DNA from: Azotobacter vinelandii CA
GTDB taxonomy: Bacteria > Pseudomonadota > Gammaproteobacteria > Pseudomonadales > Pseudomonadaceae
DNA: 64,000 bases
NCBI RefSeq assembly: GCF_000380335.1
Contig: NC_021149.1
Coordinates: forward strand, 4,082,501-4,146,500
Reading direction: 5' to 3'
This document shows, piece after piece, positions 17,788 through 25,216 of the stretch. The position numbers were made by a program, and so were the translations under genes. The stretch's first letter is position 1. Each line of letters begins with the position of its first letter. The notes below the pieces were generated by a model. That model worked only from the letters and a program-made list of their open reading frames with translations. It had not been told where the DNA came from and made no database searches.

Positions 17788-17874
17788 GCCTCGGTGGCGG
17801 AATCGGTAGACGCGGCGGATTCAAAATCCGTTTCTGGCGACAGAGTGAGAGTTCGAGTCTCTCCCGGGGCACCA
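17788..17874 (+). tRNA. tRNA-Leu (anticodon CAA)
   Basis: The 87 bases fold as a class II tRNA. The acceptor GCCTCGG pairs with CCGGGGC, the anticodon stem GCGGA/TCCGT holds the loop TTCAAAA with anticodon CAA, there is a long variable arm, and the T arm is GAGAG-TTCGAGT-CTCTC with encoded CCA. It reads UUG. Its 3' end is the likely attachment site of the island that follows. Confidence 0.95.
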
Positions 17875-18048: not shown

Positions 18049-19254
18049 ATGCCGCTATCAGACTCAGCCATCCGCACTGCCAAACCGAGAGAAAAACTGT
18101 ATCGGCTGGCGGACGCCAACGGCCTATGCCTGGAGGTGACGCCCACCGGCTCCAAGCTGTGGCGCTACCGCTACCGCTTCAACGGCAATGCAAAGATGCT
18201 GGCGCTTGGCGTCTACCCTGCCGTCACGCTCCAGAAAGCCCGCCAGCTGCGTGACGCAGCCCGCCAGTTGCTGGCCGAAGGCAAAGACCCCAGCGCCGAA
18301 CGCAAGGCCGAGCAGGAAGCCCAGCAGAGTGACGGCCTGACCTTCGAGACGCTGGCGCGGGAGTGGCACGCCTACCGGGCGCCACGTTGGGCGAAGTCCA
18401 CCGCCGACAAGACCGCCGCCTATCTGGAGTCGGACTTGCTGCCTGTCCTGGGGAAACGTCCGGTGAAGGCAATCACCCGCCCCGAGTTGGTGGAGCTGCT
18501 GCACGGGATCGAGGACCGGGGCGCGCACAACGTCGCCAAGAAGTGCCGCCAGTGGCTGAGCCAGATTTTCCGCTTCGGGCTGGCCAAGGGCAGCGTCGAC
18601 GCCAACCCCGCCACCGACCTGGACGTAGTGGCAGCCCATGCGCCGGCCACCCGCCACCATCCGCACGTCACCTTTGCCGAGCTGCCCGAGCTGCTGGGCA
18701 AGATCGAGGGCGCCAGCATCAACGTCCTGACCCGCCACGCCATCCGCCTGCTGGTGCTGACCGGGGTTCGCCCGGGCGAACTGCGCGCCGCCCCCTGGTC
18801 AGAGTTCGACCTCAAGGCCGCCGTCTGGACGATCCCGAAAGAGCGCATGAAAGCCCGCCGCCCGCATATCGTCCCCCTGCCCCGCCAGGCCATGGCGATC
18901 CTGCGCGAGCTGCAAGAGATCACCGGGGCATATGAGCTGGTCTTTGCAGGCCGCAACAACAGCGCCCGCCCGATGAGCGAAAACACGGTGAACAAGGCCC
19001 TGGCCGATGCCGGCTACCGGGGCCGCCAGACCGGCCACGGCTTCCGCCACCTGCTGAGCACTGAACTGAACAGCCGGGGGTACAACCGGGACTGGATCGA
19101 GCGCCAGCTCGCCCACGGCGACCAAGACGAGATGCGCGACACCTACAACCATGCCACCTACCTGGAGCAGCGCCGGGACATGATGCAAGCCTGGGCCGAC
19201 TCGATAGACGCGCTGTGTGCTGGCGCCAACGTGGTGAGCATCAAGAGGGCATAA
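18049..19254 (+). CDS. Tyrosine recombinase (P4-type integrase, DUF4102)
   Basis: The 401-residue product has an N-terminal DUF4102 arm-binding domain (MPLSDSAIRTAKPREKLYRL, then LALGVYPAVTLQKAR), a SAM-like core-binding domain (about 95-185) and a C-terminal catalytic domain. The catalytic residues are visible as Arg in TGVRPGELR, His-x-x-Arg in HGFRHLLST, His in LAHGD and Tyr in YNHATY. It would integrate and excise the island at the 3' end of tRNA-Leu 175 bases upstream. It appears intact. Confidence 0.95.
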   Translation: MPLSDSAIRTAKPREKLYRLADANGLCLEVTPTGSKLWRYRYRFNGNAKMLALGVYPAVTLQKARQLRDAARQLLAEGKDPSAERKAEQEAQQSDGLTFETLAREWHAYRAPRWAKSTADKTAAYLESDLLPVLGKRPVKAITRPELVELLHGIEDRGAHNVAKKCRQWLSQIFRFGLAKGSVDANPATDLDVVAAHAPATRHHPHVTFAELPELLGKIEGASINVLTRHAIRLLVLTGVRPGELRAAPWSEFDLKAAVWTIPKERMKARRPHIVPLPRQAMAILRELQEITGAYELVFAGRNNSARPMSENTVNKALADAGYRGRQTGHGFRHLLSTELNSRGYNRDWIERQLAHGDQDEMRDTYNHATYLEQRRDMMQAWADSIDALCAGANVVSIKRA

Positions 19255-19599: not shown

Positions 19600-19850
19600 A
19601 AAAAATGCTTTTAGGAATCAGCAACATAAATCAATGCAAAGCAAGAGCCATAGAAAGAGCAAGAGAAATTGCTACAGATTTATGGCAAGCCGATACTACA
19701 CACGAGTTCCGCCTCTTAGATATGGCCGAGCAGATCGAAGACATTTTAAGGCGTGAAGGTATCGAGAAGTTACCGACCATGACGCGAATCAAGGAATGGA
19801 TAAAGCCCGTCGCCCCGGACTGATCTTGCCCAGCCCTCGTGGACACAGGT

Positions 19851-20711
19851 TTAAGCACGCATCCGGGCCTCGAAGGCTTCCGGACTGATGTATCCCAGTG
19901 TGCTGTGACGACGCTGGCGGTTGTAGTCGGTTTCGATGTATTCGAACACGGTTTGACGCATCTGGGCATGCGTACCGAAGCGTTCCCCATGGATGCACTC
20001 GACCTTCAGACTGTGAAAGAAGCTTTCGGCACAGGCGTTGTCGTAGCAATTGCCCTTCGCGCTCATGCTGCCGCGCAGCCGATGGGCACGAAGCAGTTCC
20101 CGATAGGCCGCCGAACAGTACTGGCTGCCTCGATCCGTATGCACGATCACGCCTTGAGGCTGCTTGCGCCGCCACAGGGCCATGCGCAGGGCATCGCAGG
20201 CCAGCTCGGCCGTCATGCGCTCGTTCATGGCCCAGCCGATCACCCTGCGCGAGTACAGGTCGATGATCACGGCCAGATACAACCAGCCTTCTTCCGTACG
20301 CAGGTAAGTCATGTCGCCCACCCACTTCCGGTTGGGCGCCGCTGCCGTGAAGTCCTGCCGGAGCAGGTTGTCCGCCACCGGTAGTGAGTGCCTGGAATTC
20401 GTGGTGGCCTTGAACTTCCTGGCAGCCCTGGCCCGCAGTCCCTGGCGTCGCATCGAAGCAGCCACGGTCTTGCGATTGCAGGGCAGGCCCGACGCCTTCA
20501 GGTCGAGGCATAACCGCGGAGCCCCGCTGCGCCCCTTCCGCTCGTGGTAGGCCTGAGCTACCAGGCGGTCCAGTTGGGTCTGTTGCTGGCGGCGCTTCGA
20601 GAGCGTGCGCGAACACCAGGCGTAGTAGCCGCTGCGGGCAATGCCCAGCACACGGCACATGACCTTCAGTGGAAACTGCCGAGTATGGGCTTGCATGAAG
20701 GCGTACTTCAC
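19851..20711 (-). CDS. IS3-family transposase OrfB (DDE integrase domain)
   Basis: The 286-residue product starts with GTG at 20711 ([19 protein letters not shown]), which overlaps the orfA TGA. It has the HTH_21 region and the rve catalytic core with D in VGDMTYL, D in VHTDRGSQY and E in [12 protein letters not shown]. It is normally expressed as an OrfAB fusion through -1 frameshifting, which here is blocked by the IS1111 insertion in orfA. Confidence 0.92.
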
Positions 20712-20814
20712 TTGAGGCTCCTGGCAAAGTACGCGGCGGCTTAATGAGATGGTCACCCCCACACCCTGCGAGGGCCATGCTTTCGCAGGGTGTTTCATTT
20801 TGGAGACCATCACC

Positions 20815-21680
20815 ATGAGCGACGTGGCACTGATAGGAATCGACCTCGGCAAGCACAGCTTCCATCTTCACGGACAAGACAAGATCGGCCGAGAGGTCTT
20901 TCGCAGGAAGTCGTCGCGTCAGCAGATGATGCGGTTCTTCGGCAACCTCCCGGCTTTTCACGTTCCTCAATGCGCTTCGTGACGCCCAGGACCGAGGCCC
21001 AGCAGACGCTCTCGGTCCTGCATCGCATGCGGGAATCCCTGGTGCGGGATCGGACCAAAACCGCCAATCAGATGCATGGTTTTCTGCTGGAGTTCGGAGT
21101 CAGTCTGCCCAAAGGGTTGGCAGTCATGAGGCGCCTGCCCGGTGTCCTGACCGAGCGGCCACTGCCTGTTCGGTTAAGCCTGCTGCTGCAGCGCCTGCAC
21201 GCGCACTTCGACTACCTCGACAAACAGATCAGGGAACTGGACAAGGAGGTTGCAGGCCAGCTCGCGAGCGATGACCTGGGCAGCCGCTTGCTGACCATCC
21301 CATGCATCGGCCCCATCACCGCCAGCCTATTGGCTGCCGAAATAGGCGATGGCAGGCAATACGGATGCAGCCGGGACTTCGCCGCGTCCGTCGGTCTGGT
21401 GCCCAGGCAGTACAGCACCGGTGGCAAAGCCAGGCTACTGGGCATCAGCAAGCGCGGCGACAAGAGGCTCAGGCAACTGCTGGTCCAGTGCGCCAGGGTT
21501 TACCTGCAACGACTGGAGCATCAGCGCGGCGCCCTGGCCGACTGGGTACGCGCCCTGCGCAGTCGCCGCCACTCGAACGTGGTCGCCTGCGCCTTGGCCA
21601 ACAAGTTGGCTCGCATCGCCTGGTCGATCGCGGCCAACCACACGCAGTTCGAAGCGGGGCCAGACGCCTCGGCGGCCTGA
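20815..21680 (+). pseudogene. IS110/IS1111-family transposase, internally deleted and frameshifted
   Basis: The N-terminal RuvC-like (DEDD) domain starts at the ATG at 20815 ([20 protein letters not shown]) and runs to FFGNLP, about codon 46, then reads out of frame to a stop. The coding sequence resumes in another frame at about 20968 with SMRFVTPRTEAQQTLSVLHR and continues through the transposase_20 domain (IPCIGPITASLLAAEIGDG, QLLVQCARVYL) to 21680. Comparison with intact family members, from memory, suggests about 50 codons are missing, including the other acidic residues of the first domain. A hairpin CCCTGCGA/TCGCAGGG (20764-20790) lies before the start. Confidence 0.88.
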
Positions 21681-21699
21681 CCTTGCCGTTGCGCAGTAC

Positions 21700-21917
21700 C
21701 CCGAACACCTTCCAGGTTTTGCGATAGCTGGACAAGCGATGACGTGAACGGCCCACCGGCCTGGCGAAAAACCTGGCGTAAAAATCGGCTTTCGAAGCCG
21801 CCGACTTTTTCAGGATCGCCAGGCGCGACTCTCATCGTGGCGCGGAGCATGCTCCAAACGGACGCCGGATAGATTTAGGCAAGCCCAATACTCATCGCTG
21901 ATCACTATTGCAAAAAC
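21700..21917 (+). ncRNA. Candidate bridge/seekRNA region of the IS1111 element
   Basis: In the IS1111 group the guide RNA is encoded between the transposase stop and the right end. This stretch is noncoding and structured. CCAGGTTTT (21712-21720) pairs with AAAACCTGG (21768-21776), a second hairpin CGGCTT-TCG-AAGCCG lies at 21786-21800, and GGAGCATGCTCC (21844-21855) is palindromic. CGTAAAAA (21777-21784) and AAGCCGCCG (21795-21803) are complementary to the two plus-strand flanks of the element. The exact RNA ends cannot be read from sequence. Confidence 0.5.
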
Positions 21918-22407
21918 GGGGGTGACCATAGATTTTTACGATGGCCAACTCCTCGGACTGTTCGGCCAACAGCCGTTTGAGGCGGGCGTTTTCGTCGGCC
22001 AACAACTGCTCGCGCTCGCTGCTGGTCTGGGCCTGCTGTTTCCTGCTCCGCCAGCCATAGAGCTGGGAGGGGGGCAGCCCAAGCTGTTCGGCCGCTTTGC
22101 TGACGCCAATCCGTTCGGCCAAGGCCAGCGCTTCGTCCTTGTAGGCTTGGGAGTGGCGGATACGGGTTGGTTTCATCGGGCTTGCTTGCCTTGTCATGGA
22201 TCACCTCGTTGCAGTGTATCGCTTAACGGGGTGTCCACTGAGGCTGGGCAAGATCAGACTACGCCCGCAAGGGTGGCCGCCGCCGAAAACCCCCTGAGCG
22301 TTACGCATAACCCCATATCCGTTACGGGTGGAGAGTTTTTCTAGCCGAACCGCTGTACCACCATTTAGCCATCGACGTTACCCAAACTGCCCCGGAGGGC
22401 GCAGACG

Positions 22408-24751: not shown

Positions 24752-25216
24752 ATGCCCCCGAGTGTTGCCAAGCGCTCCCGCTGGCGCTATGGTGCGCTCG
24801 TCACGGTCAATCCCGTGGCCGGCCGTCGCGGGCCGATTCAGCAAACGGCGCACCAGCGCCCCAAGACCATTGCAGGCGCTTTTTTTGTGTCCGCAATGTC
24901 GTGTCATGGCGGCTGTGCGTGGGAGGGCTTCGGCCCTGCCGGGTCCCGTTTGCCCCGGTCCGCGAACCCGCGCACAGTCGCCACCAGTTACCGCGTCGCG
25001 GCGGTCGGTGGCGGCTCCAACCAAGCAAACGGAGCTGTACCCATGAAGCACCCGCACGCCCCCAATCCGTCCGCACTCCGGCAACGCGCCGCCGCCCACC
25101 GCGCCATGGCCCTGGCCGCCCTGCGCGCCGACTCCTCCCTGTTCGTCCGCCTGCGCCGCTACAACGATCACATGACCAAGGCCCGCGCCCTGGAAGCGCA
25201 GGAGGTGCTGGCATGA
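24752..25216 (+). CDS. Ash-like satellite protein with possible nested gene
   Basis: The 154-residue frame starts at the ATG at 24752 (MPPSVAKRSRWRYGALVTVN). Its middle, IAGAFFVSAMSCHGGCAWEG and RLPRSANPRTVATSYR, resembles the Ash / Icd-like proteins of P4-type satellites, which are usually encoded upstream of the replication genes. An ATG at 25043, 8 bases after GGAG, lies in the same frame and could give a separate 57-residue protein (MKHPHAPNPSALRQRAAAHR). The upstream limit is uncertain, and similarity to Ash is from memory of short motifs only. Confidence 0.45.
   Translation: MPPSVAKRSRWRYGALVTVNPVAGRRGPIQQTAHQRPKTIAGAFFVSAMSCHGGCAWEGFGPAGSRLPRSANPRTVATSYRVAAVGGGSNQANGAVPMKHPHAPNPSALRQRAAAHRAMALAALRADSSLFVRLRRYNDHMTKARALEAQEVLA

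Follow-up and report, generated by a model that had tools for sequence, protein, structure and literature searches.

Within a window of 64,000 nucleotides of Azotobacter vinelandii CA (NC_021149.1, positions 4,082,501 to 4,146,500), an insertion sequence (IS) of the IS1111 group interrupts an element of the IS3 family. The explanation that best fits our comparisons, and that we hold to be very probable, is that the right end of this IS codes for a seekRNA or bridge RNA with two target guides, CGTAAAAA (guide 1) and GCCGACTTTTT (guide 2), and with a second loop for the element's own ends, and that this RNA is aimed at the A-run of IS3 (Table 1). Comparison with related elements establishes the identity and the position of both predicted target guides. 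In the mechanism that we propose, the joined ends of the excised element would form a promoter (TTGCAA-17-GATAAT) transcribing the transposase gene and the RNA. In the first loop guide 1 would pair with the top strand to the right of the cut and guide 2 with the bottom strand to its left, with a conserved hairpin between the two guides; in the second loop the segments CTCAT and ATAGAT would recognise the two ends of the element. The RNA would direct the element to the slippery A-run between orfA and orfB of IS3. Transcription of the RNA, its pairing, the catalytic steps and the part of the second loop in binding the donor are inferred.

Target guides in the right end of the element

We took 80 of 196 relatives, whose transposases are 61-83% identical over the best segment. 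With L004 these made 81 loci, from which we dropped L061, L063, L073 and L084 (no repeat pair), L041, L077 and L080 (false repeat pair), L066 (no anchor) and L081 (not parsed); the resulting set held 72 parsed elements with 43 distinct guide pairs. The right ends share a plan, namely a CCTG-like segment, nine bases, a hairpin of the GGCTnnnnAAGCC type, a G, six bases, a short T-rich stretch and an AGG-like segment. Over the 43 pairs, with a small slip in the T-run allowed, guide 1 matched its own right flank at 7.53 of 8 positions, as against 4.79 after permutation (z 16.7), and at 6.74 as against 4.11 when no slip was allowed (z 14.6); these guide/flank permutation statistics treat related elements as independent. 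The own right flank was the best or tied best match for guide 1 in 39 of the 43 pairs. Guide 2, taken as the five bases before the T-rich stretch, matched its own left flank at 4.51 of 5 positions (permuted 1.44, z 16.9), and over seven bases the own left flank was best or tied best in 30 of 43. Comparison also assigns the strands, which the initial annotation of this DNA had left open: guide 1 complements the top strand, and guide 2 repeats the top-strand sequence, so that its partner would be the bottom strand. The difficulty had been that the left flank ends in CGGCTT, which resembles the 5' arm of the hairpin. CGGCTT within the hairpin was itself considered as guide 2 and rejected, since the hairpin stays similar across targets.

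The same annotation had proposed CGTAAAAA and AAGCCGCCG (21795-21803) as the pair of target guides; on that model each would bind the top strand. Its 8-mer, its 9-mer and its flank positions are all correct: each stretch exactly complements its own flank, both flanks abut the junction, and when 21681-21917 was put through 20,000 dinucleotide shuffles, the 8-mer arose in 0.45%, the 9-mer in 0.45% and the two together in none. Counted on both strands of the whole window, there are 2 occurrences of the 8-mer and 8 of the 9-mer. As a right-flank guide the 8-mer passed the covariation check with the relatives, both in the 43 pairs and in the hold-out described below. The 9-mer failed it. The nine-base stretch homologous to AAGCCGCCG ignores the left flank in the relatives (3.44 of 9, permuted 3.33, z 0.9) and scores 9 of 9 only in the window, whereas the neighbouring segment, our guide 2, tracks that flank. 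Moreover, the hairpin ends in AAGCC in 33 of the 43 pairs, whose targets differ (in AAGCT in 6, in AGGCC in 3 and in AATCC in 1), and the next base is G in 43 of 43; constancy at unrelated targets is just what had been named beforehand as speaking against a guide. Because the 9-mer starts with the family hairpin arm, we regard its flank match as coincidence, and a model in which CGTAAAAA and AAGCCGCCG both act as target guides, which we reject as a rule for the family, seems to us scarcely credible. The extra match within the hairpin may nevertheless have helped the insertion in the window. The observation that the guides sit beside a hairpin stands, as the family plan puts the hairpin between them.

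A hold-out of 29 loci (L125-L138, L144, L154-L165, L089 and L005) gave 21 parsed elements; L005, L135, L137, L138, L159, L160, L163 and L164 were not parsed. The guide pairs of L144 and of L127, which is probably the same locus as L010, were already in the set, several loci were copies of one element, and 10 pairs were new. Guide 1 matched at least 6 of 8 positions in all 21 elements. Guide 2, for the 18 with a left flank, matched 5 of 5 in 10, 4 of 5 in 5 and 2 of 5 in 3. When only the new pairs were considered, guide 1 scored 7.20 (permuted 5.60) and guide 2 scored 4.38 of 5 (n = 8; permuted 2.63), with 0 of 2000 permutations as high in either case. At L005, a sister element with another target that lies in the same genome as the window and matches (78%) only over its 3' part, the right flank reads TTCACATG and, by eye, CATGTGAA stands at the homologous place.

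An alignment of the RNA region from 42 of the 43 guide pairs (L065, with a longer cut, was omitted) gave a consensus fold of 28 pairs, 10 of them with changes on both sides. Compensatory changes were most marked in the outer stem, where three pairs showed them in 16, 11 and 10 sequences, and others fell in both hairpins; the fold was derived from the same alignment, and the support counts sequences, not events. In the hairpin between the guides, a G-C pair has become A-U with pairing kept in 6 of 42 sequences. Folded alone, the window strand gave -70.7 kcal/mol (z -2.03 against shuffles) and formed the outer stem CCUGGCGA/UCGCCAGG and the clamp CCUG/CAGG.

Several observations weigh against the guides and the fold as we place them. 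In the window itself, guide 2 matches the left flank at 4 of 5 positions at the junction (CGACT against CGGCT) and at 5 of 7 over seven bases. A single mismatch of this kind is common, since 9 of the 43 pairs, the window included, score 4 of 5; a search of the window's genome for CGRCT followed by the T-run of this site and ACG found three places, all with CGGCT and none with CGACT. The three hold-out cases at 2 of 5 belong to one distant element (L136, L161 and L162), and L057, L082, L062 and a Photorhabdus set also match the left flank poorly. By eye, the guides of the unparsed L081 fit neither flank; its left extension is TACAAG, and it is perhaps a copy with a rearranged left end or one that has moved. 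The fold of the single window sequence lacks the family hairpin; in it, AAAA of guide 1 is bound to UUUU of guide 2, and UCGGC is bound to GCCGA. The evidence for an open target loop thus comes from comparing the family and not from this fold. Finally, no Rfam match for the RNA was found up to E 1 within 21600-21960.

The second loop and the ends of the element

Beyond the target loop, two short segments on either side of a predicted stem and hairpin resemble the ends of the element (Table 1). In the close relatives both CTCAT and ATAGAT are nearly invariant. A covariation test within this close set alone has little power, as the ends of the elements hardly vary there, and distant relatives were required; ATGGG ends in the close set retain CTCAT, with a possible G-U pair. 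Among distant IS1111 relatives, the left end ATGAA goes with TTCAT, and ATGGG with CCCAT. For the right end plus core, the combinations are ATACA-T with ATACAT, ATATA-C with ATATAC, ATATA-A with ATATAA (L117 only) and ATACA-C with ATACAC (L147 only). Over 16 combinations the left-end segment matched at 4.44 of 5 positions (permuted 3.96, 1 of 5000 as high) and was exact in 9 of 16, and the right-end segment matched at 5.81 of 6 (permuted 4.95, 0 of 5000 as high) and was exact in 13 of 16; the search pattern fixed three letters of each segment, with two (left) and three (right) positions free, and the figures are uncorrected for relatedness. The test left out L113-L116, L141, L146 and L148 (no repeat pair) and L015 and L143 (no pattern). 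Apart from the ATGGG/CTCAT set, L043, L049, L054, L055, L057, L060, L023 and L117 deviate in one or other segment. Thus, over the 16 combinations, the two segments match and covary with both ends, as expected for the donor loop of a bridge RNA, and on these comparisons we read the RNA as a bridge RNA with two loops.

Alternatively, the RNA could be a seekRNA only, with the transposase recognising the ends through the subterminal repeats and CTCAT and ATAGAT conserved for some other reason. An 82-nucleotide seekRNA of ISEc11 was sufficient for movement, according to the parts of PMC11187229 that we draw on; by its length it would have room for hardly more than the target loop, and an essential donor loop is difficult to reconcile with that. 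The incomplete agreement of the left-end segment points the same way. Conversely, CTCAT/TTCAT/CCCAT and ATAGAT/ATACAT/ATATAC/ATATAA/ATACAC change together with the ends and the core, most consistently at the right end, and the donor segments follow the same order as the target guides. Moreover, two loops have been predicted for IS1111 in earlier work, potential donor-binding nucleotides in their RNAs having been predicted from inspected examples (Durrant et al., PMC11208160, as far as the parts at hand go). We found no further paper on covariation of donor-binding nucleotides in IS1111 in a search by titles and openings of abstracts, with subscription papers and preprints outside it. On this evidence a seekRNA without a donor loop is an unlikely, though by no means negligible, explanation.

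The element, its copies and its IS3 target

IS1111-group elements carry subterminal inverted repeats of 11-13 base pairs (bp) with terminal extensions of 7 (or 6) bp on the left and 3 bp on the right. In the window the repeats ATGGTCACCCCC and GGGGGTGACCAT pair at 12 of 12 positions, the left extension is AATGAG or TAATGAG, and the right extension is AGA; of the 72 parsed elements, 59 have TAATGAG and 70 have AGA. As in the group, a long non-coding region (21681-21932, 252 bp) lies 3' of the transposase gene. The DEDD transposase with PF01548 and PF02371 is found in an intact copy of 341 residues in the same genome (G000:C1:930891-931913). From the window's own gene a deletion, which the initial annotation does not mention, has removed the segment with VVMEACAG and NDFVDAEA. 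Three residues of the DEDD motif, E and the final two D, would lie in this segment. The assignment to the IS1111 group in the initial annotation, with a guide RNA coded in the right end, agrees with the ends, with the Pfam matches and with the family covariation of the predicted RNA.

Table 1. Features of the IS1111-group element and its host IS3-family element (positions in the window)
Feature	Positions	Strand	Remarks
Host IS3-family element	19821-22256	-	interrupted at the orfA/orfB A-run; GAC on either side
Host IS3 orfB	19851-20735	-	rve
IS1111-group element	20743-21932	+	1190 bp as written, 1191 counting the preceding core T; inside the IS3-family element
Left terminal extension AATGAG	20743-20748	+	TAATGAG when core T 20742 is included
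Left subterminal inverted repeat ATGGTCACCCCC	20749-20760	+	pairs with the right repeat
Transposase gene remnant	20815-21680	+	160 bp missing after 20956, frame broken
Predicted bridge RNA/seekRNA region	21750-21881	+	two-loop plan; outer bounds approximate; alignment of 42 relatives
Target-binding loop (predicted)	21760-21823	+	outer stem CCTGGCGA/TCGCCAGG, clamp CCTG/CAGG; columns 17-20 covary with 75-78
Guide 1 (right-target, predicted) CGTAAAAA	21777-21784	+	complements the right-flank top strand, 8/8
Hairpin TCGGCTTTCGAAGCC between the guides	21785-21799	+	family-conserved; its 3' arm begins AAGCCGCCG
Guide 2 (left-target, predicted) GCCGACTTTTT	21800-21810	+	top-strand sequence of the left flank
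Predicted donor guide CTCAT	21831-21835	+	complements the element's left end ATGAG
Stem and hairpin of predicted donor loop (GGCGC ... GACGCC)	21839-21866	+	alignment, consensus fold
Predicted donor guide ATAGAT	21869-21874	+	equals right end ATAGA plus core T
-35-like TTGCAA	21908-21913	+	joined element ends read TTGCAA-17-GATAAT
Right subterminal inverted repeat GGGGGTGACCAT	21918-21929	+	then extension AGA 21930-21932
Host IS3 orfA side	21933-22197	-	HTH_Tnp_1

Apart from the 160-bp deletion, the intact copy differs from the window copy at one base. The copies at G000:C1:4103243 (window) and 4221140 are identical, deletion included, and lie in different IS3 copies; they are a natural mini-element that retains the ends and the RNA. 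Having no transposase of its own, the window copy would move only with the enzyme of the intact copy or together with IS3, and the mini-element spread either with IS3, by exchange, or through the intact copy's enzyme. A DNA search of plasmids matched 4 records.

The flanks of the element are CGGCGGCTT on the left (20734-20742) and TTTTTACG on the right (21933-21940). We compared six copies of the IS3 element. Identity among them ends at, or a few bases from, the IS3 ends, indicating that they are separate copies at separate places. Three of the six carry the IS1111 element at the identical nucleotide and the other three are uninterrupted there, reading CGGCTTTTTTTACG in two (T7) and CGGCTTTTTTACG in one (T6), the last of which carries another insert elsewhere. 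The interruption from which the initial annotation had rebuilt orfA is therefore real; the T7 of that rebuilt reading frame fits less well. The T-run makes the exact cut ambiguous by one base, and we prefer to place it so that the left end is TAATGAG, with a core T shared by element and target. This placement is favoured by the guides of L034 and L051, which avoid T-runs, by L132, where the reading frame of orfA is kept only when element and target have one T in common (judged by hand), and by the predicted promoter at the joined ends. A shared core T implies an empty site with T6, not T7, so that either the insertion was into a T6 copy or one T has been lost.

A 3-bp duplication (GAC) borders only the window's IS3 among the three that carry the IS1111 element, and two of the three uninterrupted copies also have one (AAT, GCG). 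It could be argued that the IS1111 copy was merely carried by IS3, in which case its insertion would not have been aimed by RNA and the flank would say nothing about guidance. The three genome copies do lie in IS3 copies at separate sites, and two of them share the same deletion; together with the GAC around the window's IS3 and its absence from the IS3 copies around the other two, this makes copying with IS3, or exchange between IS3 copies, likely for at least one of them. Carriage explains how copies spread, not the first insertion. It leaves aside the full match of guide 1 as well as L132, L089, L131, L013, L016, L018, L020 and L022, which occupy the same IS3 point elsewhere with guides that partly differ. 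We consider unaided carriage very unlikely as an account of the site, and prefer an insertion aimed by the RNA.

In the window, translation of the orfA side ends in ...EELAIVK, and the orfB side reads on in both the orfA and the orfB frames. These frames place the target at the A-run of the orfA/orfB frameshift point, a kind of run at which IS3 elements change frame. The eight loci just listed, all in other genomes, fall into two IS3 groups: L132 and L089 are in close relatives of the window's IS3, and L013, L016, L018, L020, L022 and L131 are in another group (orfB about 31-34% identical). L013, with a short left flank, was placed by reading only and L089 from the orfA side only; the orfA-side script gave another frame for the window, L132 and L022, and L020 has KLK, not ILK. 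L024 and L085 also have an IS3-like orfB to the left, 337-514 bases further off, and so at another point.

The second guides at the IS3 point are GCCGACT (window), GCCGGCC (L089), GTCGGCC (L132) and GTTAGCC (the other six). The transposases of L131 and L132 are sisters and their 8-base guide 1 is identical, but their second guides differ, and they lie at the frameshift point in two different IS3 groups. Two observations count against a strict aim at IS3: L130 shares the guide pair of L132, yet its flanks have no IS3 match, and the right-flank match of L131 and L132 is only 6 of 8. Clustering of the IS3-aiming elements on the transposase tree was considered and rejected: the 5 rows gave 4 changes, as against a mean of 4.4 in 500 shuffles, 238 of which were as low. 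Of the 48 inner branches 22 are open, and the tree therefore gives weak evidence for re-aiming. We found no paper on insertion of IS1111 or IS110-family elements at IS3 frameshift sites.

Other targets recur in the subgroup. A terminator-like hairpin lies at the cut in 20 of 77 distinct sites, as against a mean of 5.8% and a highest value of 10.4% in 60 mononucleotide shuffles. Terminator targeting as a universal rule was rejected; it is one class of target, seen at those 20 sites, and no such hairpin is present at the window site (stem score 4.5). At L019, L021, L040, L042, L046, L059, L126, L128, L129, L134, L154-L157 and others the insertion is at the base of the terminator-like hairpin, where the T-run starts, and guides in the subgroup often spell a terminator end. 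By eye, the minus strand of the targets at L008, L009 and L017 resembles the start of tnpB, presumably of the IS66 family.

In the wider neighbourhood, a tRNA gene (17788-17871) is followed directly by an open reading frame that by eye resembles a phage-type integrase (18049-19254), and a C4 antisense RNA (Rfam RF01695, 80.7 bits) lies at 24902-24988. Perhaps these mark a P4-like satellite or similar island into which the IS3 element inserted.

Relation to known RNA-guided elements

The kind of system described here is already known. As far as we draw on Siddiquee et al. (2024, PMC11187229), the IS1111 elements ISEc11, ISPa11, ISKpn4 and ISPst6, with their seekRNAs, share with the window element the right-end non-coding region, the subterminal repeats, the 3-bp right extension, the promoter at the joined ends and natural re-aiming between relatives. 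The guide order is also the same, the top-strand guide (21777-21784) lying 5' of the bottom-strand guide (21800-21810), the latter with one mismatch in five. Unlike these elements, the one in the window has another target and no working transposase, and covariation of a second loop with the ends, found here, is not described in the sections of that paper that we used. The bridge RNAs of IS110 and IS1111 (Durrant et al. 2024, PMC11208160, likewise in part) have the same two loops, target and donor; covariation of the donor loop is given there for the IS110 group and here among IS1111 relatives. ISEc21, an IS110-family element treated in the consulted part of PMC11187229, is likewise RNA-guided and aimed at a conserved IS3 point, which in our case is the orfA/orfB A-run.

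Our comparison adds three things: the placement of the guides for this subgroup, covariation of the donor loop in IS1111, and the IS3 frameshift point as a recurring target. The first provides a natural rule for locating both target guides in this IS1111 subgroup, together with a warning that a conserved hairpin may match a flank by chance and give a tempting false guide. The second bears on a difference between published accounts, in which IS1111 elements have either a seekRNA for the target only or a bridge RNA with two loops. We lean slightly towards a broader view, in which IS1111 RNAs are true two-loop bridge RNAs, with donor guides that co-evolve with the ends and the core, and in which the subgroup repeatedly re-aims at the IS3 frameshift signal, whether by change of the guides or by exchange of an RNA module; L130 and the left-end segment, exact in 9 of 16 combinations, make this combined view less likely. 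The recurring IS3 target suggests that RNA-guided elements choose other mobile elements as landing sites. If this is true, one class of mobile element uses RNA guides to insert itself into another, which it disables and with which it perhaps travels.
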